Below, one piece after another: positions 13,326-57,781 of a stretch of DNA of 64,000 nt. The translations under genes were made by a program, and so were the position numbers. Position 1 is the first letter of the stretch; every line of letters starts with the position of its first letter. This DNA is from Branchiostoma floridae (lineage: Eukaryota > Chordata > Leptocardii > Amphioxiformes > Branchiostomatidae), in NCBI RefSeq assembly GCF_000003815.2, contig NC_049989.1:7855650-7919649 (forward strand), read 5' to 3'. The notes beneath the pieces are model-generated. The model searched no databases. It worked only from the letters and a program-made list of their open reading frames with translations, and was not told the DNA's origin.

Positions 13326-16300
13326 ATGGGCACAATGAACGCTGAGGCTGCTGGCGACTCTACTGACCTCGGTAACACCGCTCTGGTAGCGGCAGGTAGT
13401 ATGGAACCCGCACAGGTTGACCATCACGACACCTGTAACTCTTCTGATTGTACAGAAGAAACTGTGGATCAAAGTACTGTTCAATCTCAGATTCACTGCC
13501 AGGTCCCGTTCAGCTTTGAGGAGCGGGATGACATTTCACCAGTCTACGCAGAAGAACCTTTGCAAGATTTACACGGCCACGCTTCTATCATATACTCGGA
13601 ACAGGATGATAGACTTGACCGCTGCGTGGCAACCTTTACAGCCGGAGATGCTCGCGTATCGCGATCGATTCCGTCAGTTTGCGCTTCATATACAAACGTT
13701 AGCAAAGTTGAGGCTGCAGCTGCCCAGACGCTTTATGTTGAGAACGTCTCCGTAGAATCTGAAGACAGCCGTCCGCCGCGAGACACATATGGTACTGCCA
13801 GTAGTAAAGAAAACGATACAGTGGCCTACCAGTTGGAAGGTACCTGTCAAGAACAAGTGGCATCGGCTGTGTATAGATGTAGCCAAGATGGAAGTGATGC
13901 TAACACATATGGTACTGCCAGTAGTAAAGAAAACGATACAGTGGCCTACCAGTTGGAAGGTACCTGTCAAGAACAAGTGGCATCGGCTGTGTATAAATGT
14001 AGCCAAGATGGAACTGATGCTAACGCATATGGTACTGCCAGTAGTAAAGAAAACGATACAGTGGCCTATCAGTTGGAAGGTACCTGTCAAGAACAAGTGG
14101 CATCGGCTATGTACAAATGTAGCCAAGAAGGAAGTGATGCTAACACAAGCAGCGAAGCAGAGAATGTTGAAAGTGATAGAAGTGAACCCAAAACTGTTGT
14201 TGAGCCATTGGATAATGATTCTAACTCAGACAATGTATTCGATAATTGTACCCAAAACATAAGAAATCATCACTGTGACAGCGTAAAACCCTCAGACCAC
14301 GAGTGTATCAGTCCTTATGCAGTCGCTTATGATCGAGATGACAATAACACGAGAGATGATGAACAAGGAGATGGCTCGGACATTCAGCCATACGCCGTTG
14401 CGTATGACGAACAGGACACGCATCATTATGAAAACCAAACACAGACTGGCCTGTCGGCTGATGATTCCCAGAGCGCCTCTGCACAGCACACCAGTTTTGG
14501 TAAGTACGTTGCACAAACAGTCGCAGGATTATGTTATTAAAGGGCGTAACTAAAGTACAACATTTTCTGTTTATATTCCACAACCAAGATAGTATTATTC
14601 GATTAACATACAGTCAAACCTGTCTATAGCGGCCACTCAAGGGACTGGTCAAAATTGGCCACTATAGAGAGGTGGCCACTATAGAGAATATGCTAATTAA
14701 TTGACCACAAGCAATAAGTTACACATGGTTTTAGTACCCACCGATCTTTATTCACATAATACAGTACTGTACATGTACTTCAATGATTTTTACACTATAT
14801 GTATTAAGAAAACAAAAGCTATAAAAAGTTTTAAATGTTCTACAGTTGATATTGTCTGAAGAGACCGGTATAGTCATATTTCTTTGATCTTTCGTCTTGT
14901 ATCCTTTGATACTTCGCCGTCCGTGTGTTCCCGCTCGCGTTCACACGTCAGATTCGCCCATTATGCTAATGTGGTTACTCACAAGAAAAGTCACGTCATT
15001 TTAGACTTATCTCTTAATAAATGTAAGAATAAAATCCTTCATAGTCTGAAGTTCATATCATTTTCTCTTTGTAACAATTTATTTAGAAATTTTTGTGATG
15101 TGAATTAACCTAAGCGATAGTGTATTAGAACGTAACTTTAACAGAATTTACCTCCGTAATATTGGTGTTGTCTATTGACCTTAAATGACCTCGTTTGTCA
15201 GCGGGTATGGGTAGCGCCAGTTTACGAAGTTTTGTTTTGAAAATAAGTCAAGCAGGTTTTAAATCCGGAGTGGGGTGAAGATACGGCCGCTGTATATGGC
15301 CGAACGCGTGCCGAAACATAGATTAGCGGTCCGCGTGGCCGTTATCGGCAGTGTTTTTGTACCTGCGGGACCGGAAATCGTGTGGCCGTGGCCGCGTTGG
15401 ACAGGTGGCCGCTAAGCCTATTTCTTAATCATTACGAATCCAAGGGACCGACAAAAAGTGGCCACTATGGGCAGGTGGCCGTTATGCAAAGGTGGCCGCT
15501 AATACAGGTTTGACTGTACACGTTAGCATTTGCACCAAATATACACCCTTTTCCTGTTATTGGACATTGCGCCATCAAAGATTATTATTCAGACTCGAGG
15601 ATTTTGGTTCAAGGTAATCCAATCAAGCACGTCAGTGACGTCATATTAAACATGGCAACCAGTACGGAACACAGCACAGTGGCTCTAGAAAAATGTACTC
15701 ACATTGGCGTGGAGAGCCGCGAGAGGAGATATTGTAGTATGTTGCCATTACAGAAAGTCACAACGATTAAGCAGTATAATAAGTACTATTATAGTGCTGT
15801 GATCGAGTTAATAGATAAAATGAGGTCACGAAAATGATCACAAGTCTTCATTGTTTAAGTCCATACTGTTTATTCAGAAAAACAGACGAGAGGACAAGGA
15901 GGAAGCGCTACTGATGGACAGACGGGTGCTGCAGTCCTAGCGTCTTGTACAGCGGCTAGGGGCATACTCTCTGCTAATCCTATGTACGAACAGAACGTGT
16001 TACGTCCAAACCCCATGTACCAGGGCAACTTGCACCCCAACCCTATGTACATCCCAAATAATCTGCGACCAAATGCAGGAGGAGGTAATCACAAGATTAT
16101 ATGTCCATGCTATTGAGTATTTTCCACCAAGACACACCAAAACACATCGCTCTTATGTGCTCACAATATGGATCCAACTGCTCTAAATTCACCATGCGAC
16201 CCCGTTGACTCATTTGGCAGTACATGTATTTGGTCATATAGGATATATAAGAGCGTTATCACATATCGTAATGCGAAGCATATAATGCATTAAAGTCTTG

Positions 16301-19300
16301 TGTTGTTTTTTCTAGCATCTGTTGCATTTTTACCTCCATGATATGTCATGGAGGTTATATTTTACCCTGCGTTTGTGTGTCTGTCTGTCTGTCAACAAGA
16401 TAACTCAAGAACGGCTGGATGGATTAGTTTCATATTTGGTGTGTTGGTGGGGTGTGACGAAAGCTAGAAACGATTAGATTTTGGGCCCCCTAGCAACTTT
16501 CCTTGGTACTGCAGCGCCACTTTCGGTTTTGCTATCTCGTGTTCTGAACAAGATATGATCCCAATTTTTGAGTGTTAGATAGCTCTTGTGCTCAGGAATA
16601 ACTGACATAAGTTTGGGCCCCCTAGCGTCTGGTTTTAGGATAGCAGAGGCATTTTTGTCAGAAACTTCTGAAGTGGATAACTCAAGAAGGAAACAATGGA
16701 TTTTCATGATTTTGGGTATGTAAGTACCTTAGACAATGTTATACAAGATAAAATACAAATTATGCAAAATTAGATTACATTTGCATAATCAATGAGCTTA
16801 TTCTATCTTAGCAGTTTTTCAATGTATCTCTTGTACCCGACATGATATGGTTTTGATATTTGGGTGGTAGATAGCTTTCAACGTCATGGCAAAGTGGGGC
16901 AAGTTTCAGCCCCCTAACATGTAATTGTGGAACTGCAGGGGTGTTTTTGTCAAGACACTCCAAAGAGGATAACTATAGAAAGGAATGATGGATTGCCATC
17001 ATTTTTGGCATACAGGTAGCTTAGGCAAAGATGTTTATAATGATATACATTTCATGCAAATGAGGACTTAATTTGCATAATTAATGAGGAAATTGTACAA
17101 TTCCATTGTTTTCAATAGCTGAACTTACGTAAATGTAACACATGTAATTTATGATAGGTGAGAGATAAGCAGATACCAAATATGCAAGTGAGGAACTGAT
17201 TTGCATAATATATACAGAAATAGCATATCCACATAATGACTAATATTGAGAATTTCATAATTGTGACATGTGTACGTTAGTCAATAATGAACATCGCCAT
17301 ACATAAATTATGTAAATGGTAGTCATTTGCATGAAATTTACAAAAGCTCTAAATTTTCATGGAGGTATGAGGTCGCCGAACTCTAGTTACCCCTAGTATG
17401 GAAGTAATATGAATTGTGTTTGTATGTATTTTTGACCACTGTTATATCAAATGTCGATTAAATGTATTCCAGCCTTAAATATGAACGAGACCATTTGTTA
17501 CCATTTTGTCAAATACTCACTTCTGAAATGATCAATCTTTTCGCAACTTGGCGGTTGTTTTTCAATATTGTAGATCAGCTCCAATGATTTATCAGTCCAT
17601 TAATGCTAATTTACTTCCGAATATGTTGTCCAAAATAACTAAACCATCCCTCCCCAAATTATCATGTAGATATTTTACTTGCATTTCATTGATAATCATT
17701 TCAAAATTAATTGTAAATATTTGTCCTTTTACACATCTCAACGTACACGTCACATCTACTGTAGCACATTCACAGTATTCTCTTGATGATAAACGCGCGA
17801 GTGACACTCTAGATGTCATATTTTATGCTTGATGCTGTTGACGTCATCTGCTCGGCAGGTCGTAGCCGTGTTTTTCTTGCCACATGCTGTGTGACCGCGA
17901 GTGTGTTCGTGATGGCGCTGGTTGTTTCACTTGCCTTGCTCCTTCCGACTTCGGTCAAGCCAGCGAAAGAAAGCACTGCTCACACGAATACGGTAAGTCG
18001 TTTATTTTCATTCTAACTGTTGGTCAAAATACTCGCCATACCCCGCGATATTTGGCTCCAATCTATATGGATACGTGTACGTGTATCAGGATTATTACAA
18101 CTGCTATTGAGATTTAAGATCCATTATATGTACATATTTGTCATACATCACCCAATGCCCTGGTTCTTCTCTTTTGTCGTCTGCTCATCCTAGGTATGGC
18201 CGACTGGATATGTTACATGTCCACAGAACGCCACGGGACTGATAATGGCGATGATGACACAGAACGCCACAGTCCAAGCGGATACTGACCGACATGTGGA
18301 ATACACATCATCTACACATGCACCTGCTGCCAGCACTGAAGGTATTATTTCGGAAGTATTGCTATCTATACTGTTCTCTTTAATAGAATAGAATGGAATA
18401 AATAGCAATACTTCAGAAAATGTACTCTCACAGGTTACTTTTTCACATGAAGTAACACTATCGATTTGCTGTAATCATTTATTGTTATAATTACATATTT
18501 GACTTGGCATAATCAATCAATACGATATAATTATGTGAGTCATTCCTTCCTTCCTTCCTTCCTTCCTTCCTTCCTTCCTTCCTTCCTTCCTTCATTCATT
18601 CATTCATTCATTCATTCATTCATTCATTCATTCATTCATTCATTTATTCACAATAAAAAACAGTATTGAATACCCCATTGCATACACTATGTACTTTTTC
18701 TGAAGTAAAATGTGTCTAAATGTGAAGTTCTCAAAACCTTTTTACTGCATGAAAACGATGATCTTTTTTTTCAGAGATTGAGATCCAAGAAGTCAACCGG
18801 ACCATAACTAATGTTACCTTCGGCGGACATGGTTCTAAAGTCGTCAGGTTTTCTGGAGTAAGCAATGCCGCTGTGTCGCCTAGCAACGAGGTATTTGTTG
18901 CGGACACGTTTAACAGGAGAGTTCAAGTCTTTAACATGGAGGGCGTCTACCTCCGGAAGTTCCCGACGGTCGTGTCTGTGGAAGGATCCGAGACTATGAA
19001 CCCGTACGACATGTCCATTGACGGGAAGGGTCATCTGTGGGTGATTGGAGAGACCGACTCGTTAGAACTGATCCTTGTCCGGTACACGAAAACGGGACGC
19101 CACATAATCACAATCCATCCACCTTCCCTATTCACGACCTTTAACGACATTGCGGTCGACACACTTCGGAATCACGTCATCGTCATAGCAGAAAATGCGC
19201 AAGGAGCTCGAGTCTCTAGGGAAGTCATGGTGCTTCTTTACAATGGTACCGTGGTCCGAAAGTTTGAAACGCGGCAAGGGTGGCCTAACTTTATTACTGT

Positions 19301-19628
19301 AGACAGAAATGGACGATATTTGGTAACTGACGTTTATAAAACTCGCGACCTTGTGTATGTCTATAGCGAGACTGGACAATACCAGTTTAGTTTTGGAAGT
19401 GAGGGCCGGATATCAACGCCCATGGGAATCTGTGTGTACAGTTCAGGTAAATTTGTTCTAGTGGCAGATGGGTATGATGTAAGCTTAGAAATGTTCACAG
19501 ACAGCGGGGAGCATGTCCGCCGCGTTGTGCCCGGTGTGATGTTCACGGGAATAGCTGTAGCACCAGGTGGCCAGCTGGTTCTAGTGAATGAAATTCATGA
19601 TACCGTCACCATACTGTCACGCTATTGA
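13326..19628 (+). CDS. Type II membrane protein with NPxY tail and NHL propeller, copy 1 (intact)
   Basis: Exons 13326-14499, 15878-16084, 17859-17992, 18194-18341 and 18775-19628 join in phase across GT-AG sites into 838 aa. Seen: an acidic Ser/Tyr-rich N-terminus with three 40-aa repeats (residues 154-273), two PYAVAYD motifs, three NPMY motifs in exon 2, a hydrophobic anchor about 465-493 in exon 3, a stalk with two NAT sequons in exon 4, and six NHL-like blades about 563-838 in exon 5 (blade 1 has VFVADTFNRRVQVF). Family knowledge: NPxY motifs bind PTB domains or endocytic adaptors; NHL propellers bind ligands. Inference: no signal peptide and sequons only after the anchor imply a cytoplasmic N-terminus and an extracellular propeller. 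There is no RING or B-box, so it is not a TRIM protein. The ATG at 13326 is favoured because its position is conserved in all copies. Confidence 0.8.
13785..14144 (+). repeat. Three near-identical 120-bp coding repeats, copy 1
   Basis: Exact 120-bp period (13785, 13905, 14025), encoding 40-residue units that start TYGTASSKENDT and end SDAN. Only a few bases differ among copies, so the array is recent or homogenised. Genes 2 and 3 have two units, the first with two extra codons. The unit is in frame, so array length can change without breaking the protein. Confidence 0.93.
14611..15516. mobile_element. TA-flanked inverted-repeat DNA transposon in intron 1 of copy 1
   Basis: A 906-bp element with terminal inverted repeats beginning CAGTCAAACCTGTCTATAGCGG on the left and ending GGTTTGACTG on the right, flanked by TA on both sides (14609-14610, 15517-15518). 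Several GGCCACTATAG-type motifs are repeated near each end. Gene 2 has a continuous intron at the same point (near 22950), which delimits the insertion. No transposase ORF is visible, so it is non-autonomous. Confidence 0.85.
16333..17388. mobile_element. CCTCCATG-type element in intron 2 of copy 1
   Basis: About 1.05 kb beginning CCTCCATGATATGTCATGGAGG and ending TTTTCATGGAGGTATGAGG plus about 20 bp, with a (GTCT)n tract and a TGTCAACAAGATAACTCAAGAA segment inside. Intron 2 of gene 2 runs straight from GCATCTGTTGCATTTTTA to ACCCTAGTATG, so this block is an insertion. There is no coding capacity, and exact ends are uncertain by a few bases. Confidence 0.7.
18541..18645. repeat. (TTCC)n(TTCA)n microsatellite, intron 4 of copy 1
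   Basis: A compound tetranucleotide array about 105 bp long. The matching array in gene 2 (24935-25017) is shorter and interrupted. In gene 3 only a few ATTC units remain near 33318-33350. Confidence 0.95.
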
Positions 19629-20555
19629 TCCTGTCCTGAAAGAAGTAGCTGTTTTGACACAAAAAAGTACAGTAACTTTTGTTCCGTCAACAACAAACTG
19701 TAATTCTCCTTCGTGAGTATAATTTTGTGTATATCACTCTCTGTTTATATAATCTAACACAACAAGCTGGAATAACAGGTACCAGAGATATTCATTTAGA
19801 ACTCTTAAGTCATGTGATGTCATCAGTGTCATGTTGGCGTCTCTATTTGCAGGTCAATGAATCATACCTCAAGCGTTCTAGACATTTAAAGATCTTCTGC
19901 CCCCCTCAAATAACCACCATTGAATGTCTACAGCTGTAATAAGTGAATACAAGAAGAACACCTAAAACAAAAATACTAAGTACACTTGAGCTAGCTATAT
20001 GATCCATTGAAATGCAAATAGGGACACCAACATGGCAGTCGGCACCTACCTGCTTCATTGAGATTGAAAGTGTTTATATTCTGTATAGATAATGGTCTTA
20101 GTAAATGCTATCAACTAAATCGTACATTCCTTATTCATTTACTTTTATTATAGGTTACGGCCAATGATATATTGTCAACAGTTTCTATTCAATCTGTCAA
20201 CTTGCATTTTACTTCTGTCTCTATGGTAAATTACTTTAAAATATGGAATATCTTGTTGACCTTTGTTAATACAGTGGCTTTATTGTATTGAGAAGAAAAT
20301 TATTGACTTTTAATAATGCAGGGAAGAGATTATTTTTGGTAATGGTATTGAAGACAGTAGAATATACTACATATTCATTTTTCAGGAAGGGTTTGGCTGC
20401 AATAAAACTCATCAAATATTGTAAACAAATATGAAACATGTGTTTCAATAATAGTACATGTACGTTTCCCTGTGAACATAGCAGTCAGCAACCTTTTGTC
20501 GCATCAAATAACTGTCCAGTCAAATAATGGCCAGATGAAGTAATGCGCCTTCGTC

Positions 20556-20675
20556 GAGTTAGGGTTAGGACATGGGTTACCGTTGGATTAGGGCTATGAT
20601 TACATGCTGGTTTGGGCCCTAGGATAAGGCTTAGATTAGGGTTTAGTGTAGCGTTAGGGTTGGATTAGGGTTTAT
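20556..20675. repeat. Degenerate TTAGGG-like block, unit 2
   Basis: Several scattered GTTAGGGTTAGG / GGATTAGGG strings with irregular spacing, conserved in unit 3 at about 26903-27018 and absent from unit 1. It is too degenerate and short to be a telomere or a clean interstitial telomeric repeat. Confidence 0.55.
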
Positions 20676-20939
20676 CTCCAGAGCGTGACCCATCCTTCCA
20701 AAACCCGCGCAGACTTCTTCTTGAAAATTGTCAGGTCCCATAAGAGCCTGACGCACGTCTGTCTGGTATACAGTACCCCCAAACAGTGTCGGGCCAATCA
20801 TTTGGCAGGTGGCAAACTTGCCGTTACACCTGCAGCTTCACAATATCAAATTCCGTAGATATATTCAGAAAGCGTAATCCAGAAGCTCGCGATCGAACGT
20901 AAAGTTTACTTTCTCGACCAAAAAATGAAAAACATGACA

Positions 20940-21860
20940 CTGTAAAGAAGACAATTAAACGCCCTTAATGTAAGATTTGTCTCAGTTTTTGTTTACCCGA
21001 TGTTTTATGGCATTTAGTGCATATTTTCATCAATATTCTCGTTTATCTGGAGTTTCACTTATTAGCTAGACTTATTGCCCTTTTGCGTGGCATAGAAAGA
21101 TTGTCTACTGACGTCTTGAATAAAACTCGTACCCAACATAATTCCCGTGACACCTGCAGCTTCGCCATGTGGACCATTCCGTACATTCAGAAAATAGAAG
21201 GCGAAATCCAGAAGCCCAAAAAGTTAACTTTCTCGACCAAAAAAAAAAGAAGGAAAAAATGACACTAGATCTAATATGAAGACAATCTAAAGCCCTTAAT
21301 GTAAGATTTGAATCCATGTTTGTTTACCCGTTATTTTACGGTATCTAGTAAATATTGAATATTCTTAGCTTGTGTAATATCATTTATCTGGAGTTTCATT
21401 TATTGCCCTATTTCGGGCGTAGAAAGATTGTCTACTGACGTCTTGAATAAAAGTCATACCCGGGCCCATGAAACAAAATTCCTGTGACACTTGCAGCTTC
21501 ACCATGTGGACCATTCCGTACATCCAGAAGGCGTAATCCAGAAGTCCAAAAAGTTAACTTTCTCGATAAAAAGAGAAAAGAAATTGAAAGTCGTGGATAC
21601 AATCTAGCCACCTTGATATAAGATTTGTTTCAGTGATTGAAACAGGTTTTCATAAGATCTGGTACATTTTTTCATGAATATTCTTGTTTGTATTATATTG
21701 TTTCACTTATTGGTTTAGACGTATTGCCCTGGCCCTATTTCGTGGCGTGGAAAGATTGTCTACTGACTGACGTCATAATTAAAACTCATACCCTACAAGT
21801 AGAGCCACCAGGAATCAATCGCCAGACATCGCTTCACTACAAAACAACGAGGAAGGCTAG
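20940..21860 (+). repeat. Promoter-proximal ~290-bp subrepeats, unit 2
   Basis: Three diverged tandem copies starting near 20940, 21255 and 21590 of the same subrepeat as in unit 1. Each carries TGACGTC (near 21108, 21434 and 21768), and the last is a full TGACGTCA palindrome. The equivalent array of unit 3 spans about 27275-28100. Confidence 0.7.
21768..21775. promoter_or_regulatory. Perfect CRE palindrome upstream of gene 2
   Basis: TGACGTCA, the consensus CREB/ATF site, about 200 bp before the upstream-ORF ATG. It is conserved at 28041-28048 in unit 3. Unit 1 has only TGACGTCT at the equivalent place. Binding is not shown. Confidence 0.4.
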
Positions 21861-21977
21861 TTTTCCTCTCTTATTTTTCCCAACGAACGGATAAAATGCT
21901 GATAGAGTTAAAAACTACAGATTTTTTTGGAAGGACGGTAATTTTCGTAGATTCATTTGTGACCACTCGTACTCAAG

Positions 21978-22040
21978 ATGGATACAATGAACGTTGAGGC
22001 TGCCGGCGACTCTACTGACTTCGGTTTAACACTGCTCTGA
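21978..22040 (+). other. 20-codon upstream ORF left by a frameshift, copy 2
   Basis: This ATG is the positional equivalent of gene 1's start (context CAAGATGGATAC). A 2-bp insertion after the GGT codon shifts the frame and brings in TGA at 22038-22040, only 14 nt before the ATG at 22055 that opens the main frame. The same arrangement exists in copy 3 at 28249-28311. If translated, the peptide could reduce initiation at the main ATG. Confidence 0.7.
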
Positions 22041-22054
22041 CAGCGACAAATAGT

Positions 22055-25000
22055 ATGGAACCCGCACAATGTAACTCTTCTGATTGCACAGAAGAAACTT
22101 TGGAGCAAAATACTGTTCAATCTCAGCATCACTGCCAGGTCCAGTTCAGTTTTGAAGAGCAGGAGGACATTTCACCAGTCTACGCAGAAGAACCGCTGCA
22201 ATCTGTAGAATCCGTAGAATCTGAAGACCGTCCGCCGCGAGACACATATGGTACTGCCAGTAGTAAAGAAAACGATACAGCGGCCTACCAGTTGGAAGGT
22301 ACCAGGTGTCAAGAAGAAGTGGCATCGGCTGTGTACAAATGTAACCAAGATGGAAGTGATGCTAACACATATGGTACTGCCAGTAGTAAAGAAAACGATA
22401 TAGCGGCCTACCAGTTGGAAGGTACCTGTCAAGAACAAGTGGCATCGGCTGTGTACAAATGTAGCCAAGAAGGAAGTGATGCTAACACAAGCAGCGAAGC
22501 AGAGAATGTTGAAAGTGATAGAACTCAACCAAAAGCTGTTGTTGAACCGTTGGATAATGATTCTAACTCAGACAATGTATTCGATAATTGTACCCCAAAC
22601 ATAAGAAATCATCACAGCGTAAAACCCTCAGACCACGAGTGTATCAGTCCTTATGCAGTCGCTTATGATCGAGATGACAATAACACGAGAGATGATGAAC
22701 AAGGAGACGGCTCGGACATTCAGCCATACGCCGTTACGCATGACGAACAGGATACTAATCATTATGAAAACCAAACACAGACTGGCCTGTCGGCTGATGA
22801 TTTGCAGAGCGCCTGTATACAACATAACACCAGTTTTGGTAAGTACGTTGCACAAACAGTCGCAAGATTATGTTATTAAAGGGCGTACGAAACAGAAGTA
22901 CAACATTTTCTGTTTATATTCCACAACCAAGATAGTATTATTCAATTAACACACACGTTAGCATTTGCACCAAATATACACCCTTTTCCTGTTATTGGAC
23001 ATTGCGCCATCAAAGATTATTCTTCAGACTCGAGGATTTTGGTTCAAGGTAATCCAATCAAGCACGTCAGTGACGTCATATTAAACATGGCAACCAGTAC
23101 GGAACACAGCACAGTGGCTCTAGAAAAATGTACTCACATTGGCGTGGAGAGCCGCGAGAGGAGATATTGTAGTATATATGTTGCAATTACAGAAAGTCTC
23201 AACAATTAAGCAGTATAATAAGTACTATAATCATAATGCTGTGATCGAGTTAATAGATAAAATGAGGTCACGACAATGATCACAAGTCTTCATTATTTAA
23301 GTCCATACTGTCTATTCAGAAAAACAGACGAGAGGACAAGGAGGAAGCTCTACTGATGAACAGACGGGTGCTGCAGTCCTAGCGTCTTGTACAGCAGCTA
23401 GGGGCATCCTCTCTCCTAATCCTATGTACGAACAGAACGTGTTACGTCCAAACCCCATGTACCAGGACAACTTGCACCCCAACCCTATGTACATCCCAAA
23501 TAATCTGCGACCAAATGCAGGAGGAGGTAATCACAAAATTATATGCCCATGCTATTGTGTATTTTCCACCAAGACACACCAAAACACATCGCTCTAATGT
23601 GCTCACAATATGGATCCAACTGCCCTAAATTCACCATGCGACCCCGTTGACTCATTTGGCAGTACATATATTTGGTCATATACAAATGTAGGATAAGAAC
23701 GTTATCACATATCGTAATGCGAAGCATATAATGCATTAAAGTCTTGTGTTGTTTTTTCTAGCATCTGTTGCATTTTTAACCCTAGTATGAAAGTATATGA
23801 ATTGTGTTTGTATGTATTTTTGACCACTGTTATATCAAATGTCGATTAAATGTATTCCAGCCTTAAATATGAACGAGACCATTTGTTAACATTTTGTCAA
23901 ATACTCATTTCTGAAATGATCAATCTTTTCGCAACTTGGCGGTTGTTTTTCAATATTGTAGATCAGCTCCAATGATTTATCAGTCCATTAATGCTAATTT
24001 ACTTCCGAATATGTTGTCCAAAATAACTAAACCATCCCTCCCCAAATCATCATGTAGATATTTTCCCTGCATTTCATTGATAATCATGTCAAAATTAATT
24101 GTAAATATTTGCCCTTTAAAACATCTCAACGTACACGTCACATCTACTGTAGCACATTCACAGTATTCTCTTGATGATAAACACGCGAGTGACACTCTAG
24201 ATGTCATATTTTATGCCTGATGCTGTTCACGTCATCTGCTCGGCAGGTCCTAGCCGTGTGTTTCTTGCCACATGCTGTGTGACCGCGAGTGTGTTCGTGA
24301 TGGCGCTGGTTGTTTCACTAGCCTTGCTCCTTCCAACTTCGGTCAAGCCAGCGAAAGAAAGAACTGCTCACACGAATACGGTAAGTCGTTTATTTTCATT
24401 CTAACTGTTGGTCAAAATACTCGCCATACCCCGCGATATTTGGCTCCAATCTATATGGATACGTGTAAGTGTATCGGGATTATTACAACTGCTATTGAGA
24501 TTTCAGATCCATTATATGCACATATTTGTCATACATCATGGCACCCAATGCCCTGGTTCTTCTCTTTTGTCGTCTGCTCATCCTAGGTATGGCCGACTGG
24601 ATATGTTACATGTCCACAGAACGCCACGGGACTGATAATGGCGATGATGACACAGAACGCCACAGTCCAAGCGGATGCTGACCGACATGTGGAATACACA
24701 TCATCTACACATGCACCTGCTGCCAGCACTGAAGGTATTATTTCGGATATATTGCTATCTAAACTGTTCGCTTTAATAGAATAGAATGGAATAAATAGCA
24801 ATACTTCCGAAAATTTACTCTCACAGATTACTTTTTCACATGAAGTAACACTATTGATTTGCTGTAATCATTTATTGTTATAATTACATATTTGACTTGG
24901 CATAATCAATCAATACGATATGATTATGTGAGTCATTCCTTCCTTCCTTCCTTCCTTCCTTCCTTCATTCATTCATTCATTCATTCATTTATTTATTCAT

Positions 25001-25629
25001 TCATTCATTCATTTATTCACAATAAAAAACAGTATTGAATACCCCATTGCATACACTATGTATTTTTTCTGAAGTAAAATGTGTCTAAATGTGAAGTTCT
25101 CAAAACCCTTTTACTGCATGAAAACGATGATCTTTTTTTTTCAGAGATTGAGATCCAAGAAGTCAACCGGACCATAACTAATGTTACCTTCGGCGGACAT
25201 GGTTCTAAAGTCGTCAGGTTTTCTGGAGTAAGCAATGCCGCTGTGTCGCCTAGCAACGAGGTATTTGTTGCGGACACGTTTAACAGGAGAGTTCAAGTCT
25301 TTAACATGGAGGGCGTCTACCTCCGGAAGTTCCCGACGGTCGTGTCTGTGGAAGGATCCGAGACTATGAACCCGTACGACATGTCCATTGACGGGAAGGG
25401 TCATCTGTGGGTGATTGGAGAGACCGTCTCGTTAGAACTGATCCTTGTCCGGTACACGAAAACGGGACGCCACATAATCACAATCCATCCACCTTCCCTA
25501 TTCACGACCTTCAACGACATTGCGGTCGACACACTTCGGAATCACGTCATCGTCATAGCAGAAAATGCGCAAGGATCTCGAGTCTCTAGGGAAGTCATGG
25601 TGCTTCTTTACAATGGTACCGTGGTCTGA
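22055..25629 (+). pseudogene. NHL receptor-like gene, copy 2, truncated by a nonsense codon
   Basis: Exons 22055-22838, 23320-23526, 24247-24380, 24587-24734 and 25145 onward are in phase. The frame stops at TGA 25627-25629, where copies 1 and 3 have CGA (Arg). The product would be 585 aa ending in blade 3, without blades 4-6. The frame is otherwise open to the ancestral stop at 25995 (707 aa if read through). The change is a CpG transition, so it could be a recent pseudogenising mutation, a null allele in the sequenced individual, or a secretory-folding-defective protein. The tail, three NPMY motifs and membrane anchor (about 335-363) are intact. The start lacks copy 1's first residues because of the upstream frameshift. 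Confidence 0.75.
24935..25017. repeat. (TTCC)n(TTCA)n microsatellite, intron 4 of copy 2
   Basis: Shorter, interrupted counterpart of 18541-18645. Confidence 0.9.
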
Positions 25630-28040
25630 AAGTTTGAAACGCGGCAAGGGTGGCCTAACTTTATTACTGTAGACAGAAATGGACGATATTTGGTAACTGA
25701 CGTTTATAAAACTCGCGACCTTGTGTATGTCTATAGCGAGACTGGACAATACCAGTTTAGTTTTGGAAGTGAGGGCCGGATATCAACGCCCATGGGAATC
25801 TGTGTGTACAGTTCAGGTAATGTTCTAGTGGCAGATGGGTATGATGTAAGCTTAGAAATGTTCACAGACAGCGGGGAGCATGTCCGCCGCGTTGTGCCCG
25901 GTGTGATGTTCACGGGAATAGCTGTAGCACCAGGTGGCCAGCTGGTTCTAGTGAATGAAATTCATGATACCGTCACCATACTGTCACGCTATTGATCCTG
26001 TCCTGAAAGAAGTAGCTGTTTTGGCACAAAAAAGGACAGTAACTTTTGTTCCGTCAACAACAAACTGTAATTCACCTTCGTGCATAATTTTGTGTATATT
26101 ACTCTCTGTTCATATAATCTAACACAACAAGCTGGAATAACAGGTACCAGAGATATTCATTTAGAACTCTAAAGTCATGTGATGTCATCAGTGTCATGTT
26201 GGTGTCTCTATTTGCAGGTCAATGAATCATACCTCAAGCATTTTCAGACATTTAAAGATCTTCTGACCCGGCCCCCTCAAATAACCACCATTAAATGTCT
26301 ACAGCTGTAATAAGTGAATACAAGAAGAACAAAAATACTGAGTACACTTGAGCTAGCTATGATCCATTGAAATGCAAATAGGGACACCAACATGGCAGTC
26401 GGCACCTACCTGCTTCATTGAGATTGAAAGTGTTTATATTCTGTATAGTAAATGCTATCAACTAAATCGTACATTTCTTATTCATTTACTTTTATTATAG
26501 GTTACGGCCAATGATATATTGTCAACAGTTTCTATTCAATCTGTCAACTTGCATTTTACTTCTGTCTCTATGGTAAATTACTTTAAAATATGGAATATCT
26601 TGTTGACCTTTGTTAATACAGTGGCTTTATTGTATTGAGAAGAAAATTATTGACTTTTAATAATGCAGGGAAGAGATTATTTTTGGTAATGGTATTGAAG
26701 ACAGTAGAATATACTACATATTCATTTTTCAGGAAGGGTTTGGCTGCAATAAAACTCATCAAATATTGTAAACAAATATGAAACATGTGTTTCAATAATA
26801 GTACATGTACGTTTCCCTGTGAACATAGCAGTCAGCAACCTTTTGTCGCATCAAATAAATGCCCAGTCAAATAATGGCCAGATTAAGTAATGCGCCTTCG
26901 TGGAGTTAGGGTTAGGACATGGGTTACCGTTGGATTAGGGCTATGATTACATGCTGGTTTGGGCCCTAGGCTTAGATTAGGGTTTAGTGTAGCGTTAGGG
27001 TTGGATTAGGGTTAATCTCCAGAGCGTGACCCATCCTTCCAAAACCCGCGCAGACTTCTTCTTGAAAATTATCAGGTCCCATAAGAGCCTGACGCACGTC
27101 TGTCTGGTATACAGTACCCCCAAACAGTGTCGGGCCAATCATTTGGCAGGCGGCAAACTTGCCGTTACACCTGCAGCTTCACAATATCAAATTCCGTAGA
27201 TATATTCAGAGAGCGTAATCCAGAAGCTCGAACGTAAAGTTTACTTTCTCGACCAAAAAATGAAAAACATGACACTGTAAAGAAGACAATTAAACGCCCT
27301 TAATGTAAGATTTGTCTCAGTTTTTGTTTACCCGATGTTTTACGGCATTTAGTACATATTTTCATTAATATTCTTGTTTATCTGGAGTTTCACTTATTAG
27401 CTAGACTTATTGCCCTTTTGCGTGGCATAGAAAGATTGTCTACTGACGTCTTGAATAAAACTCGTAACCAACAAAATTGCCGCGACACCTGCAGCAGAAA
27501 ATAGAAGGCGTAATCCAGAAGCCCAAAAAGTTAACTTTCTCGACCCCCCCAAAAATAAGGAAAAACTGACACTAATATGAAGACAATCTAAAGCCCTTAA
27601 TGTAAGATTTGAATCCATGTTTGTTTACCCATAAAACTCATACCCATAAAACATATTATTTATCTGGAGTTTCATTTATTGCCCTATTTTGGGCGTAGAA
27701 AGATTGTCTACTGACGTCTTAGATAAAATTCATACCCATAAAACAAAATTCCTGTGACACCTGCAGCTTCGCCATGTGGTCCATTCCGTACATCCAGAAG
27801 GCGTAATCCAGAAGTCCAAAAAGTTAACTTTCTCGATAAAAAGAGAAAAGAAATTGAAAGTCGTGGAGATATCAATCTAGCCACCTTGATATAAGATTTG
27901 TTTCAGTGTTTGAAACAGGTTTTCATAAGATCTGGTACATTTTTTCATGAATATTCTTGTTTGTATTATATTGTTTCACTTATTGGTTTAGACGTATTGC
28001 CCTGGCCCTATTTCGTGGCGTGGAAAGATTGTCTACTGAC

Positions 28041-28048
28041 TGACGTCA
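28041..28048. promoter_or_regulatory. Perfect CRE palindrome upstream of gene 3
   Basis: TGACGTCA at the same place as in unit 2, in the last promoter-proximal subrepeat about 200 bp before the leader ATG. Confidence 0.4.
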
Positions 28049-28248
28049 TAATTAAAAATCATGCCCAGCAAGTAGAGCCACCAGGAATCAATCGCCAGAC
28101 ATCGCTTCACTACAAAACAACGAGGTAGGCTAGTTTTCCTCTCTTATTTTCCCAACGAACGGATAGAATGCTGATAGAGTTAAAAACTACAGATTTTTTG
28201 GAAGGACGGTAATTTTTGTAGATTCATTTGTGACCACTCGTACTCAAG

Positions 28249-28311
28249 ATGGATACAATGAACGCTGAGGCTGCTGGCGACTCTACTGACTTCGGTTTAA
28301 CACTGCTCTGA
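28249..28311 (+). other. 20-codon upstream ORF, copy 3
   Basis: Same 2-bp insertion and same stop as in copy 2, ending 14 nt before the main ATG at 28326. Confidence 0.7.
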
Positions 28312-28325
28312 CAGCGACAAATAGT

Positions 28326-31300
28326 ATGGAACCCGCACAATGTAACTCTTCTGATTGCACAGAAGAAACTTTGGATCAAAATACTGTTCAATCTCAGCAT
28401 CACTGCCAGGTCCAGTTCAGCTTTGAAGAGCAGGAGGACATTTCACCAGTCTACGCAGAAGAACCGCTGCAATCTGTAGAATCCGTAGAATCTGAAGACA
28501 GCCGTCCGCCTAGAGACACATATGGTACTGCTAGTAGTAAAGAAAACGATATAGCGGCCTATCAGTTGGAAGGTACCAGGTGTCAAGAAGAAGTGGCATC
28601 GGCTGTGTACAAATGTAACCAAGATGGAAGTGATGCTAACACATATGGTACTGCCGGTAGTAAAGAAAACGATACAGCGGCATACCAGTTGGAAGGTACC
28701 TGTCAAGAACAAGTGGCATCGGCTGTGTATAGATGTAGCCAAGAAGGAAGTGATGCTAACACAAGCAGCGAAGCACAGAATGTTGAAAGTGATAGAAGTG
28801 AACCCAAAACTGTTGCTGAACCGTTGGATAATGATTCTAACTCAGACATAAGAAATCCAGGCGGCATAATACCCTCAGACCACGACTCTATCAGTCCGTA
28901 TGCAGTCGCTTATGATCAAGATATCAGTAACGGGAGAGACAACAGTGAACTAGGAGATGGCTCGGACATTCAGCCATACGCCGTTACGTATGACGAACAG
29001 GACACTCATCATTATGATAACCACACACTGACTGGCCTCTCGGCTGATGATGCGCAGTTCGCCAGTATACAACATAACACCAGTTTTGGTAAGTACGCCG
29101 CACAAACAGCCACAAAATTATGATAAATGCACATTGAAAACATCATTTCATTTCACACTTTGTCCAAGACAATTTCGATATGTTTTTCAAATCAATTGCT
29201 TATCATTTATTTTAAATCTATAGATTATAATCATTATGATAAGGACTGTTTTCTGTTTAGGCAATGTAGCTATTTCCTTACCAACACACCCTTCTTCGAC
29301 TACAGAAAAGCCGTATATTAAACCCTATGTACTACATCTACAAGACACAGCGCATACAATACGCACTGTCATGTCATGTGCACACACACACTCACACAAG
29401 CGAGCGCGCGCACAAGCGCATGCACCTACAGCCACACACCCGCACATATACACAACACCCCCTACACACACACACTTGACCTAATTATTTGTAAAGATTT
29501 ATGAATGGGCGATATACACAAAACAACGGTCCATTTCGATACAGTGGATTCTGTTTGGTGGAGTATCCGTCATCCATTGGCGCTTAAAAGTTCTATCTTC
29601 ATGTAAACAACACTAACTGATTCTATTTTAGACCAATTTTGACCGTACAAGCTTGGTAAAAATGACTATCAGCTCTCCTCTACTTCGCTCTTGTTAATTT
29701 CTTGGACGTGTATGCCCCAAAACAGGTGAACGCCTGCCGGTGTAATCTGTTCATTTTCGAATAGGTCAAACATCCGATCCACTGATTTTTTTTTTAGGTC
29801 CGGTTTTTCTGGGGCGGTCCAACACGGTCTTGTACCGGTACACCGTACGGGTACCCACCCCTAGTAATAGATCATTGAGGTCACGACAATTATCACAGCC
29901 CTTCATTCTTTAAGTCCATACTGTTTATACAGAAAACCAGGTGAGAGGACAGGGAGGAAGCTTCACTGATGAACAGACGGGTGCTGCAATCCTAGCGTCT
30001 TGTACAGCAGCTAGGGGCATACATGTACTCTCTCCTAATCCTATGTACGAACAGAACGTGTTACGCCCAAACCCCATGTACCGACAGGACAACTTGCGCC
30101 CCAACCCTATGTACATCCCAAATAATCTGCGACCAAACTTAGAAGGAGGTAATCAAAAAGTTCTTTCAAACTATATGTCCATGCTATTGAGTATTTTGCC
30201 ACCTTAGCTATCTTGACACACGTATCGCTGTTATGTGCTGACAGTATTAATCCAACTGCCCTAAATCCACCATGCGACCCCGTTGACTCATTTGGCAGTA
30301 CATGTTTTTGGTCGTATTGGATATATAAGAACGTTATGACATTTTGTAATGCGCAGCAAAGTCTTGGGGTTTTTTCCTAGCATTTATTACATTTTACCTT
30401 TAGAATGAAAGTGTATGTATTGTATTTATAATTTATGATCAAAACCCACACATCTTTTGCCTTCTACTGTCTTTGGAAAAGACAATAACCCAGAATCTAG
30501 AGTCAGCTTTTAGACTAGAGTAGACACTTGCTATATTGTTTTCGTTACACTGTTTGAATCTCTCATCTTACCTGCAAGTAGCCCGCGGGCAAGAATTTGC
30601 AATAAACTTATTAATGCCTGATGCTGTTGACGTCATCTGCTCAGCATGCTGTGTGACTACAAGTGTGTTCGTGATGGCGCTGGTTGTTTCACTAGCCCTG
30701 CTCCTTCCGACTTCGGTCAAGCCAGCGAAACTAGACATTGCTCACACGACTACGGTGAGCCGTTCATTTTCATTCTAACCTTTGGTCAATACTCCCCATA
30801 CTCCATGATACTTGGCTTCGATTTATATGGATACGTGTATCAATTATTACAACTGCCATAATTGAGATTTAAGATTCGTTGTATGTACATATTTGTCATA
30901 CATTATCAAATTCCCTAGTTCTTCTCAGTTACTCTTTTGTCGTCTACCCATCCTAGGTATGGCCGACTGGATCGTTATAATAAATGAATATCTTTATTGC
31001 ACATTTTGCCACACCGGGCCAAGTACAGGTCACAACAAGACATGCTGAAGAAATACATTTAACAGATAAAAGATAGAACTAAGATAGAACTAGATAAATC
31101 AAACCTCTCCACGCTTTTCAATTATGGTGGAGATAAAAGAACAGAAATGTTTTAAGACCGACGGTTTGTCTTGTTTCATTATGAATATGTTATATGTACA
31201 CAGAACGTCACAGTCCAAGCGGATACCAACCGACATGTGGAATACACATCATCTACACATGCACCTGCTGCCAGCACTGAAGGTATTATTTCGGAAGTAA

Positions 31301-34300
31301 TTGCTACTTACGAGGGGTGATCAACAAGTTCTCGGCCTCACCCAGAAATAATGAGTACAACTCAAATTTTGAGGCACAACTTCACAGTATGGAGCCTTTT
31401 ATCAATATCCGCCAAATTTCAAATCACTGCAAGTCATCACTTTACAGGCATTCGTTTCTTGCAAATCAGAAGGTATAAGTGGCGAGAAAAAAGTGGTGTG
31501 AATTATGATCAGACATGTGTGGGTCGAGTTCCCCATGCCGTAAATTTTCAAAAGACATTGTCAAAATGTTTGATAATGATTCTCTTCCTATTTCAAGCAA
31601 AAAGAATTGGGTGTCTGACTTCCAGCAGCGCAATTTGACCCGCACACCTCAGGTCAGGTCAATTGTCCACGCTTTTTCCTTCTCCCTTACCTAACATTAC
31701 TGGGTGTCGCCTGCAAAGTAATGATCACAATGATTTGAATTTTGGTACATATTTATAAAAGACTTTATACTTGACATCTACGCTTCGAAATCTGAGCTGT
31801 GCGTATTATTTCTCGGTGAAGTCGAAGACTTATTGATAACCCCGAGTACATGTATAAAGTCTTATATGAATGTGTACCCAAATTCAAATTATTGTGATCA
31901 TTACGTTGCAGGCGACACCCAGTAACGTTAGGTAAGGGATAACGAAAAAAAAGTGGACAATTGATCTGCAACCTGAGGTGTGCAGGTCAAATTGTCTGAT
32001 CACACTTCACCCTTCTTTTTGTCGCAACTTACCTTCCAATTTAGGAAAAACGAATGCCGGAAAGTAATGACTCCAATGATGTGTAATTTGGAGGATATTG
32101 ATAAAAGGCTTCATACTATGAAGTTGTGACTCAAAATCTGAGTTGTGCTTGTTATTTCTGGTGAGGCCGGGAACTTATTGATCACCCCTCGTAAACTGTT
32201 CTGTTTAACCCGATTCAGACGGGGGGGGGGGGGGGGGGCTTTTGAGGCCTGCGCCAACTTCGATGTCATATAACGCAAGAACGGCTTATGCTAGAGCCAC
32301 CAAATTTGGTGAGTTTTCCTAAAATATTGTTGGTAACAATGTCATGAAGTTGACAAATTTTCCATTTTTTTCGTGTTGCCATGGTAACCGTTTGTTTACA
32401 GGCAGTTGCCAAAGATCGCTAATTTCAGTTCTAACAATGTATTTTTCACGTTCATTTTCTATATTACTGCTATTTTCTGACATAAATGAAATCTTATGTT
32501 ATTAAGAATATCTTTCATAATTGGATATGCATAAATTATGCTAATTTGATGACGTCATCAGCCCAAATCCAAGATGGCGGACCGTATGGCCAGATAAAGA
32601 ATAACTAGCTTTAATATCATCCCTTAGAATTTGTAACTACCTGGTATTTTTTCATAAAAAAACATCTAGATGAATGTATTAAGTCCATTTCCATTGCCTT
32701 TTGTGATAATTTGTTGCAAAAAAAGGATTTTTGAAATTTCAAGGTGGTGGATATAATGTGGCGGAGCCCAACTGGTATCTTAGATGTGAATGACGTCATT
32801 TTATGATGTCATTTTGACGTCATTGATATTGCTATTGGCAACACAAGTCGTAACAAACAAACATCATTATTCTGTTATATGCACTTGCTGTTACATTTTG
32901 TAGTATAGCTTGAAGTTTTCGGAGAATGCCCCTTTTTCATGGGTTTGGCCAATATAATCAAATTGATGACGTCATAATGACGTCACATTACGACAACGTA
33001 CCGTCAAACATCTTATACTTGTCAGATATTATGTCTACATCATGTTCTAAAAAATTGGTGGCCATACAACACGTCGTTTAAGAGTTATAGGACTTAGAAG
33101 TGGGTGGCCTCAACCCCCCCCCCCCCTTCCACGGTCCAGGGATGACCAAAAAAGCCCGGTCTGAATAGAGTTAATAGAATAGAATAGATAACGAGACTTC
33201 CGAAAATTTCCTCTTACATGTTACTATTTCAGATGAAGTAACATTATGGATTTGCTGTAATCAATTATTGTTATAATTACATATTTGACCAGGCTTTAAC
33301 AATCAATACGATGATGATTTATTCATTTATTCATTCATTAATTCACTCACAATTAAAATCAATATTGAATACTTCTCTCCATTGCACCATGTATTTTTTG
33401 CATGCAGTCAATTGGATTTAAATATGAAGTCCTCAAGACTTTCTAATGCATAAAAACTATAATCTATAATTTTCCAGCGATTCAGATGCAAGCAGTCAAC
33501 CAGACGATATCTAAAATTACCTTTGGCGGACGTGGTTCTAAAGCCGGCAGGTTTTCGGGATTAAACAATGCCGCTGTGTCTCCTAGCAACGAGATATTTG
33601 TTGCGGACACGTTGAACAGGACAGTTCAAGTCTTCAACATGGAGGGCGCCTACCTCCGGAAGTTTCCGACGGTCGTGTCGGGGGAAGGATCCGAGGCTAT
33701 GGACCCGTTAGACATATCCATCGACGGGGAGGGTCATCTGTGGGTGATTGGAGAGACGGACACGTCAGAAATCATTGTCAGCTATACAAAAAAGGGGCGC
33801 CACATAATAACAATCCATCCATCCTCCCCAAACATAACCTTCCACGACATTGCGGTCGACAAACTTCGGAATTACGTCACTATCACTACGGCAGAACAAG
33901 AAGTCTCTGGGGCTGGGGATGTCACGGTGCTTCTTTACAACGGTACCGTGGTCCGAAAGATTGAAACGCCGCAATGGTGGCCTAACTTTATTGCTGTAGA
34001 CAAAAATGGACGGTATTTGGTAACTGACATGTACAAAACTGACCTTGTGTACATCTATAGCGAGACTGGACAATACCAGCTTAGCTTGGGAGGCAAGGGC
34101 CGGATATTAATGCCAGTGGGAATCTATGTGGATAGTTCAGGTAATATTCTGGTGGCAGATGAGTATGATTCAAGCGTGGAAATGTTCACAGACAGCGGGG
34201 AGCATGTCCGCCGCGTTGAGCCCGGTGTGATGTTCACGGGTATGGCTCTAGCACCAGGTGGCCAGCTGGTTCTGGTGAATCAAATGTATAGTAACGTCAC

Positions 34301-34319
34301 CATACTGTCACGATATTGA
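28326..34319 (+). CDS. NHL receptor-like gene, copy 3 (rescued reading frame)
   Basis: Proposed exons 28326-29088, 29933-30148, 30645-30754, 31204-31282 and 33478-34319 join in phase to 669 aa. The tail has two 40-aa-type repeats, two PYAVAYD motifs and three NPMY motifs. The membrane anchor is about 328-352 and six NHL-like blades fill exon 5 with no stop. The original exon 4 acceptor (TAG before 30957) leads into an inserted sequence with a TAA after eight codons. An internal acceptor ending TACACAG at 31203 gives exon 4 in the correct phase, minus the first part of the stalk. That exon 4 choice is inference. The downstream half is more diverged from copies 1 and 2 than the upstream half. 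Confidence 0.65.
29383..29476. repeat. CA-rich/GC-alternating simple repeat
   Basis: An imperfect CA array with an internal GCGCGCGC tract in intron 1 of copy 3. It is alternating purine-pyrimidine, so it could form Z-DNA. Copies 1 and 2 do not have it. Confidence 0.7.
30973..31186 (-). mobile_element. Retroelement-like 3' tail inserted in exon 4 of copy 3
   Basis: About 214 bp lie between ...GCCGACTGGAT and ATGTTATATGTACACAG, which are adjacent in copies 1 and 2. Read on the minus strand, the insert ends CAATAAAGATATTCATTTATT, resembling a retroposon 3' end with an AT-rich tail. It puts a stop codon in the original exon 4 frame. The element family is not recognised. Confidence 0.6.
31311..32191. 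mobile_element. TA-flanked foldback (Tc1/mariner-like ends) element in intron 4 of copy 3
   Basis: Starts CGAGGGGTGATCAACAAGTT and ends with the inverse, flanked by TA at 31309-31310 and 32192-32193. The terminal inverted repeats are about 200 bp, and the interior (about 31640-31980) is a second, related palindrome, so nearly all of the 881 bp can fold into one long hairpin. Gene 2 has the uninterrupted site (GCTATCTAAACTGTTC). No transposase ORF is visible. Assignment to mariner rests on TA target and terminus style. Confidence 0.8.
32209..33170. mobile_element. TTAA-flanked (piggyBac-style) non-autonomous element in intron 4 of copy 3
   Basis: 962 bp between TTAA at 32205-32208 and TTAA at 33171-33174. 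The left end is CCCGATTCAGAC then a run of 18 G. The right end, inverted, is CTCTATTCAGACCGGG, with a C13 run about 44 bp inside. Genes 1 and 2 have a single TTAA-type site at this position (CTTTAATAGAATAG). There is no coding capacity. Confidence 0.78.

Positions 34320-43632: not shown

Positions 43633-57781
<14,149 letters not shown>

Follow-up and report, generated by a model that had tools for sequence, protein, structure and literature searches.

Tandem NPMY-NHL genes of Branchiostoma floridae: candidate type II surface receptors with a TRIM-NHL-type propeller

The window analysed here, a stretch of 64,000 nucleotides of Branchiostoma floridae (contig NC_049989.1, positions 7,855,650 to 7,919,649), carries three tandem gene copies on its + strand, called A, B and C. 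A five-exon model can be built for each copy, with GT-AG introns throughout and intron phases 1, 1, 0 and 1 in all three, and this gene structure is established by calculation. The exons follow one order, from an acidic tail with 40-aa (120-nt) repeats through an NPMY exon, a hydrophobic anchor and a stalk to an NHL propeller, and the models come to 838 codons for A, 669 for C and, with a stop included, 707 for B. The exon-1 frame of A runs to 413 aa and the NHL frames of A and C to 288 and 290 aa, respectively, to be compared with a mean of 144 aa and a maximum of 215 aa for the longest ORF of mononucleotide-shuffled windows (n=30). A search of the window for extra gene remnants returned weak matches only (best E 0.58).

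In gene A, exon 1 (13326-14499) encodes the acidic, tyrosine-rich tail, with three 40-aa repeats at 13783-14147, two PYAVAYD motifs and a YxN motif in HHYENQT, and exon 2 (15878-16084) encodes three NPMY motifs in 11-residue repeats. Exon 3 (17859-17992) supplies the single hydrophobic anchor, TCCVTASVFVMALVVSLALLL, exon 4 (18194-18341) a stalk with two NAT sequons, and exon 5 (18775-19628) an open NHL propeller frame plus its stop. Gene B has two 40-aa repeats (22242-22489) in exon 1 (22055-22838), three NPMY motifs in exon 2 (23320-23526), the anchor in exon 3 (24247-24380), the stalk in exon 4 (24587-24734) and the propeller in exon 5 (25145-25995), where a TGA at 25627-25629, CGA in A, interrupts the frame; the B propeller would end there, within or after blade 3. 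Gene C also has two repeats (28516-28763) in exon 1 (28326-29088) and three NPMY motifs in exon 2 (29933-30148). Its anchor exon (30645-30754) is shorter by 8 residues on the N-terminal side of the helix. In its stalk exon, an insertion that contains stop codons (30973-31190, limits approximate, set by eye) interrupts the sequence, and the model requires a different acceptor, inferred at 31204, and a shortened exon 4 (31204-31282). Exon 5 (33478-34319) is an open NHL propeller frame.

A preliminary description of this locus had proposed one five-exon architecture for all three genes. The introns and phases of A, B and C bear it out, but the TGA of the B propeller, the insertion in the C stalk and the shortened C anchor depart from it. 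The other elements listed there, i.e. the 40-aa repeats, the PYAV motifs (two per copy), a separate short ORF with three NPMY motifs and one hydrophobic anchor ORF, are present in each copy. The start taken there, the ATG at 13326, has equivalents in B and C, but from these the frame stays open for about 20 codons before a stop; the start common to the copies is MEPAQ (22055 in B, 28326 in C), both observations having been made by eye.

A and C are 84-91% identical in their exons; their introns 1 and 2 are 56% and 74% identical, and introns 3 and 4 86% and 81% over the alignable part. The A-C dN/dS is 0.63 over the whole CDS (bootstrap 0.47-0.85), and 0.68 with an upper bound of 1.09 for exon 5 alone. 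Copies A and B match at 96% over a length of 3.8 kb, a value within the range of lancelet allelic divergence. The pair was rejected as a haplotig artefact, i.e. a simple allelic duplicate, because the 5' part of B is closer to C than to A. Indeed, informative sites of B are C-like by 94:9 in 21600-22400, evenly split (5:5) in 22400-22600 and A-like by 489:29 in 22600-26000, and the recombination junction falls in the zone 22305-22611, in or beside the exon-1 repeats. Gene B is a chimera with a C-like 5' part and an A-like 3' part, a pattern predicted by unequal crossing-over and also compatible with gene conversion. The tandem turnover suspected beforehand is thus visible in B as a C/A recombinant. 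Bearing this mark of unequal crossing-over, the three copies look like a fast-changing surface-receptor family, in which repeats within a coding exon could seed new receptor combinations.

A Pfam scan of A and C found NHL above cut-off in both (E 1.2e-8 and 3.3e-16, respectively). A PDB search with an exon-5 profile returned 14 sequences at E<=0.01 (best E 3e-26), each being TRIM2, TRIM3, TRIM71, Brat, Thin, Mei-P26 or an NHL (RING, B-box) protein, and no teneurin chain was among them. Judged by these matches, the window propeller is TRIM-NHL-like. The window genes share this propeller sequence with TRIM-NHL proteins (TRIM2/3/71, Brat, Thin), whereas a membrane anchor and a tyrosine tail stand in place of the rest, and RING, B-box and coiled coil gave no Pfam match in the exon-1 frame of either A or C. 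The best of five AlphaFold2 models of C exon 5 has 23 strands, a mean pLDDT of 68 (55, 55, 45 and 45 for the others) and a pTM of 0.73, its first 28 residues being unsure; the count of six blades derives from the strand count and the sequence pattern. The NHL propeller exon announced in the preliminary description is thus upheld by Pfam in A and C and by the model in C, and its frame is broken in B.

With loops assigned from the DSSP of this moderate-confidence model and from sequence, A and C differ at 32 of 70 residues in the top loops vs 4 of 37 in the bottom loops (Fisher p 2.3e-4), and the top loops show a dN of 0.287 and a dS of 0.255. The rapid change claimed earlier is therefore supported and, as calculated on the model, concentrates on one propeller face. 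In a RING/B-box comparison group of eight domains (Pfam-tested in L007, which itself carries an anchor-like segment, the others being assigned by kinship or eye), omega is 0.63 for the top and 0.28 for the bottom; in a DED group of four domains (DED tested in L023), it is 1.09 and 0.06. Since both groups share it, top-face variability is not specific to the NPMY-NHL genes and is partly structural. One-face variation was accordingly rejected as proof of external recognition, the RING/B-box group showing the same.

The anchor precedes NHL in the gene models, as in teneurins, and the corresponding type II topology is moderately supported by several features of the predicted proteins. Inspection by eye shows hydrophilic predicted N-termini and no evident signal peptide, both in the models of A, B and C and in six paralogues that have their first exon inside the stretch (L009, L011, L015, L016, L019 and the second gene of L029). 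Subtracting the C-side from the N-side charge of the anchor gives a positive net value in 10 of 14 genes; B and L020 come out at zero, and C and L019 are negative. On K+R alone, N-in is favoured in 6 of 14, with 5 even and 3 opposite (sum 24 vs 19). Of the 14 NHL domains in the NPMY group, 11 read N-G-S/T at the blade-3 turn (including L016_1555, whose tail lies outside the stretch), vs 0 of 21 other NHL domains, and the further membrane-anchored NHL genes L010, L012, L013 and L021 have D there. Overall sequon density is similar between groups, with 35 observed vs 27.5 expected in NPMY-group NHLs and 7 vs 5.1 in DED-group NHLs. L007 combines RING, B-box, a hydrophobic segment and NHL in one ORF; if its RING is cytosolic, its NHL would therefore lie across the membrane. 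Hydrophilic N-termini, net flank charge and the blade-3 sequon favour type II, K+R alone doing so more weakly. The preliminary description had instead used sequons after the anchor as the topology mark. This asymmetry was rejected as an argument, sequons before the anchor being as many or more (before/after: A 11/5, B 8/5, C 6/6), and the position-specific sequon of the blade-3 turn, drawn from paralogues, is better evidence.

Twelve of the 14 examined cassette genes together contain 40 NPxY sites, and the NPMY sites of these genes share the tail consensus N-A-L-x-P-N-P-M-Y-x-x. Position -6 is hydrophobic in 36 of the 40 sites; position -5 shows no consistent hydrophobic residue, the commonest being R and N (7 each), H and L (5 each), and S and D (3 each). 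NPxY motifs of the LDLR/Shc type have a hydrophobic residue at -5, which LDLR-type internalisation requires, and PTB domains of the IRS/Dok type prefer a hydrophobic residue (leucine) at -6. On this pattern, the NPMY sites appear nearer to the IRS/Dok preference than to the LDLR/Shc type. The motifs would be placed in the cytosol.

A search of the 513-Mb genome with the NPMY exon gives 41 matches at E<=1. All 13 fetched cassette places lead into NHL sequence (about 22 further places are outside this count), and 12 of them have a clear anchor-like exon, that of L035 being unclear. A swap of the cassette onto lectin or LRR ectodomains, proposed beforehand as a check, was not seen in these 13 places. 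By this calculation of family extent, dozens of genes appear to carry an NHL beta-propeller anchored outside the cell on a tyrosine-motif-rich tail. In a tree, the 14 NPMY rows grouped with one change and without support (25/0), and therefore neither one nor several origins of the NPMY tail are shown. A literature search found no paper on the NPMY-NHL family among the papers listed, which were part of the matches where more papers matched.

The NPMY-NHL genes probably form a large, lancelet-type family of single-pass type II membrane proteins, in which a cytosolic tyrosine tail is joined to an extracellular TRIM-NHL-type propeller serving as receptor, a reading to which a probability of roughly 0.6 is given. 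The N-terminal acidic tail with its PYAV and NPMY motifs would lie in the cytosol, followed by a signal-anchor helix, and a short stalk would hold the six-bladed propeller on the extracellular side. Ligands or partner proteins may then bind to its variable top face, and the NPMY and YxN tyrosines, once phosphorylated, may recruit PTB/SH2 adaptors that serve signalling or uptake. New receptor variants, and also broken ones such as B, would arise as copies multiply and recombine through unequal crossing-over. Surface location, ligand binding and phosphotyrosine signalling are here predictions from sequence. The modular receptor of the preliminary description is retained in its predicted type II anchor, NHL propeller and NPxY tail, without the sequon argument as it was stated. 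If this is true, a propeller whose best-known carriers are RNA-binding ubiquitin ligases would have been relocated to the cell exterior in an invertebrate chordate and multiplied there into a repertoire of surface receptors, with a tail predicting PTB/SH2 output. Immunologists and evolutionary biologists would have a defined family at hand, along with a prediction of its binding face and a concrete mechanism of recombination.

Conserved splice phases, overall purifying selection between A and C and the recurrence of NPMY, anchor and NHL exons were counted for the receptor reading; the greater abundance of cysteines and, in A and B, sequons before the anchor, together with broken B and altered C, the flank charges of B, C, L019 and L020, the weaker K+R bias, the D at the blade-3 turn of L010, L012, L013 and L021, the similar sequon density of DED-group NHLs and the shared top-face variability, were counted against it. 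The abundance of cysteines and sequons before the anchor would suit a reversed topology, with the cysteine- and sequon-rich repeat region outside and the propeller in the cytosol as in TRIM-NHL proteins. Cysteines number 17/2 before/after the anchor in A, 13/2 in B and 10/0 in C, with two per copy at the helix start itself; the nearest solved relatives are TRIM-NHL-class propellers, the flank charges of B and C do not favour N-in, and K+R alone does so in 6 of 14 genes. This reversal is nevertheless quite improbable in view of the hydrophilic N-termini without evident signal peptide (by eye, in the window models and six paralogues), the net flank charge pro N-in in 10 of 14 genes, the position-specific sequon of the propeller and the RING-anchor-NHL relative L007. 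It is also very doubtful that tandem duplication left A, B and C merely as decaying copies without a current role, although B has an in-frame stop, C an insertion and a changed acceptor, and constraint is weak over the whole CDS and, above all in its upper bound, in exon 5. Indeed, the whole-CDS omega of A-C stays below 1 at its upper bound (0.85), the reading frame stays open for 838 codons in A and for 669 in the model of C, and the same architecture recurs in distant paralogues.

Two further roles bear on the receptor reading through known proteins. LDL receptors have an extracellular six-bladed propeller and a cytosolic NPxY, and the window genes, as predicted, would resemble them in both; with NPxY triplets in A, B and C, besides the 40 sites of the cassette genes, an endocytic cargo receptor may be imagined, in which NPMY repeats would recruit clathrin-associated PTB adaptors and the propeller would capture particles or proteins. 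Unlike LDL receptors, the window genes are predicted to be type II, not type I, with no signal peptide evident by eye, and their propeller is NHL, not YWTD (no Pfam match to YWTD or LDLR repeats in the frames of exons 1 and 5 scanned for A and C). The endocytic role is rather improbable, as a hydrophobic residue at -5 is uncommon and leucine at -6 suits IRS/Dok PTB domains better. With the same topology, the proteins might also be adhesion molecules, their propellers binding each other or a membrane partner between neighbouring cells and their tail organising the cortex, with no foreign ligand to report. Teneurins, overlooked when extracellular NHL was said to be limited to a few secreted enzymes, are described in two papers as type II membrane proteins with an extracellular NHL propeller (PMC6422961; PMC5851990), exposed and with proposed NHL-NHL contacts (PMC5851990). 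The window genes, although much smaller, share with them the order of anchor and NHL and would share type II topology and extracellular NHL if the prediction holds; paralogous variation on one face also fits partner matching. However, adhesion seems unlikely, as the propeller of the window genes is not teneurin-like by sequence (no teneurin chain in the 14 PDB matches), and neither EGF repeats nor TTR/FN-plug nor YD shell were found when the exon-1 and exon-5 frames of genes A and C were scanned with Pfam. Teneurins are, in addition, few in copy number, unlike this large family.

Other NHL genes of the same genome differ in their tail, with other tyrosine-rich tails, RING/B-box or an adjoining DED exon. 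Like the window genes, they have NHL joined, or apparently joined, to a signalling module; unlike the NPMY group, they have D or another residue at the blade-3 turn and not N-G-S/T. Tentatively, the NHL propeller could be a general variable recognition module in this chordate lineage, with one diversifying face, >100 copies and several outputs, comparable to LRR or lectin domains elsewhere, the window genes being its phosphotyrosine-receptor arm. Its outputs would be tyrosine-rich membrane tails, of which there are at least four kinds, RING/B-box with or without anchor and death-effector genes. In a filtered scan, no anchor was found in L023, in which a DED exon adjoins the NHL frame, or in L026. 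The other tyrosine tails beside NHL carry VYSTPSGIYEE, HVYDNE and YEEAE.

The NPMY-tailed NHL genes form a real, sizeable family for which no earlier description was found in a literature search. Across the genome (513,431,437 bases in 431 contigs; the window is G000:C11:7855650-7919649), the NPMY exon gave 41 matches at E<=1 with all 49 candidates scored, 3 in the window and 38 elsewhere; three pairs of the latter overlap by coordinates, leaving about 35 further places, the weakest of which may be chance matches. Thirteen of these places (5 + 8, one extended), where the NHL family search had listed no NHL match, were examined, and in every one NHL sequence follows on the same strand, the match spanning about 200 residues in stretches L034 and L036 and 179 in L035, being cut off by the stretch edge in L041 and, in L039, covering 44 residues before a masked stretch. 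By eye, 12 of the 13 show a clear anchor-like exon; L035 is unclear in this respect. By coordinates alone, seven more NPMY-exon places (contig:position C6:1218097, C6:1330057, C6:1336672, C1:876757, C18:10166626, C9:3794174, and C9:19964964) are followed on the same strand, within about 3 kb, by a match to the propeller of gene C. The NHL family search gave at least 150 matches (150 scored of 1680 candidates) and the C-propeller search at least 139 (139 scored of 722). Among 20 stretches examined at NHL matches, 18 picked for short open frames and 2 from one cluster, six carry a PYAV/NPMY tail upstream of NHL (L009, L011, L015, L016, L019, and L020). Dozens of NHL frames lie in a cluster on contig C17 (18.3-18.97 Mb), and a long, partly masked LRR-like frame was seen by eye beside an NPMY-NHL gene on contig C4 (L042, 4764-7025 in gene orientation).

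The exon architecture proposed for the three window genes in the preliminary description stands with corrections: B has an in-frame TGA at 25627-25629, where A has CGA, and exon 4 of C had to be modelled from another acceptor because an insertion with stops splits its stalk exon. Every intron is GT-AG, the three copies share phases 1, 1, 0, and 1, and the models comprise 838 (A), 707 (B, including the TGA), and 669 (C) codons. Between A and C, identity is 84-91% in exons, 56% in intron 1, 74% in intron 2 and, over aligned portions, 86% in intron 3 and 81% in intron 4; therefore, the exon-intron contrast is clear for introns 1 and 2 only. The A-C dN/dS is 0.63 (0.47-0.85) over 664 codons and 0.68 (0.46-1.09) for exon 5 alone. 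A (TCAT)n tetranucleotide array stands in intron 4, 5' of the NHL exon, in A (18540-18650) and B (24933-25019).

Three known systems resemble the family in part: TRIM-NHL proteins in propeller sequence, teneurins in a layout of which A, B, and C look like a small version, and NPxY receptors in the tail. The family fits the definition of none of the three. Such genes may already be present in genome annotations as unnamed proteins. According to two papers, teneurin is type II (PMC6422961) and exposes its NHL outside the cell (PMC5851990). The main text of PMC12373286, in the part available, does not mention NHL, and PMC3503706, which treats Branchiostoma TRIM genes, makes no mention in its available part of membrane-anchored NHL genes.

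The window genes and their relatives are predicted to be type II NHL receptors, a receptor function being a reasoned guess. Type II topology is favoured by the N-termini of A, B, C, and six paralogues, which are hydrophilic and by eye show no evident signal peptide, and by the anchor flanks: subtracting the net charge after the anchor from that before it gives a positive value in 10 of 14 genes, zero in two, and a negative value in two, C included. K+R alone counts against it, favouring N-in in six of the 14, being even in five and opposite in three, as do sequons (A and B) and cysteines, both richer before the anchor than after. An N-G-S/T at the blade-3 c-d turn, also favouring type II, occurs in 11 of 14 NPMY-group NHL domains (10 of 13 without L016_1555, assigned by kinship as its tail lies outside the stretch) versus none of 21 others, although the NPMY rows are related and these occurrences are not independent events. 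That turn carries D in 18 of the 21, and the other membrane-anchored NHL genes, those of L010, L012, L013, and L021, have D there too. Observed/expected sequons are 35/27.5 in the NPMY group, 7/5.1 in the death effector domain (DED) group, and 2/10.4 in the RING/B-box group; sequon density does not separate the first two, a further point against type II, though RING/B-box is low.

Of 14 genes, 12 contribute a total of 40 NPxY sites in their tails (L009 and L011, with no frame of at least two sites, count as zero). These sites define the repeat N-A-L-x-P-N-P-M-Y-x-x, 11 residues long; position -6 is L, V, or I in 36 of the 40, and position -4 is P in 34 of them. PTB domains prefer a hydrophobic residue at -5 (LDLR/Shc-type) or at -6 to -8 (IRS/Dok-type). 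Within-gene repeat homogenisation can alternatively keep such a motif. A, B, and C also share Y-[ED]-N, a Grb2-type SH2 pattern.

Propeller loops were assigned from DSSP of a model of C exon 5 (best of five, pLDDT 68, pTM 0.73, from an alignment of 2 sequences) and the repeat pattern. A-C differences number 32/70 in b-c and d-a loops, which form the binding face in TRIM-NHL propellers, 4/37 in a-b and c-d loops, and 39/159 in strands (30/70, 4/37, and 37/159 with a smaller alignment). Summed top/bottom omega, from pairs that are not independent, is 0.77/0.37 in the NPMY group (10 pairs), 0.63/0.28 in the RING/B-box group (28 pairs), and 1.09/0.06 in the DED group (6 pairs); the polarity is therefore real yet shared and, on the modelled loops, is partly a property of the propeller fold.

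NHL also occurs behind other tails, namely DVYSTPSGIYEEAQ repeats in L010 and L012, HVYDNE repeats in L013, and YEEAE/YHVPE in L021, an anchor-like exon being visible in L010, L013, and L021; tyrosine repeats in these four comprise VYSTPSGIYEEAQ, HVYDNEKPT, and YEEAE. A single 569-aa frame in L007 (640-2346) runs from RING and B-box through a segment that looks hydrophobic by eye to NHL, a candidate membrane-anchored TRIM-NHL. In L023 (6894-7526, 7690-8598), an exon encoding a DED (Pfam E 3.5e-18) lies directly 5' of an NHL frame, and we infer that both belong to one gene; by eye, L026 has a similar frame. In a tree of 35 NHL domains, the RING/B-box group is separate (support 97/91), and the NPMY rows group together without support (25/0).

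A, B, and C are head-to-tail copies of one gene. At positions that distinguish A from C, B is C-like over 21600-22400 (94 to 9), even over 22400-22600 (5:5), and A-like over 22600-26000 (489 to 29), the switch lying in or adjoining the exon-1 120-nt repeats. If chromatids mispaired through these repeats, a crossover joining a C copy to an A copy would give the order A, C/A hybrid, C; gene conversion could leave a similar pattern. Upstream of A, 11758-12351 is an approximately 79% copy of the A and B 3' flanks, which suggests an older unit whose gene has since been lost, no clear coding remnant having been found there.

The cluster lies between an acetoacetyl-CoA-synthetase-like gene upstream (3152-10092, +; fragment 9682-10089 versus PDB 4wd1, E 4.7e-6) and a rabphilin-like gene downstream (54122-57834, -; fragment 56793-57164 versus 1zbd rabphilin-3A, E 8.3e-6), the latter with two FYVE_2 fragments under Pfam's cut-off (E 2e-4 and 3.3e-4). 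Their human counterparts are both on 12q24, and the pair is possibly an old linkage. Two reverse-transcriptase ORFs 3' of the cluster, at 35755-38352 (+; RVT_1 E 1.1e-31) and 61777-63258 (-; RVT_1 E 1e-29), are probably LINE-type elements, and repeats of 77 and 157 bp, arrayed in either orientation, occupy 50629-51570.
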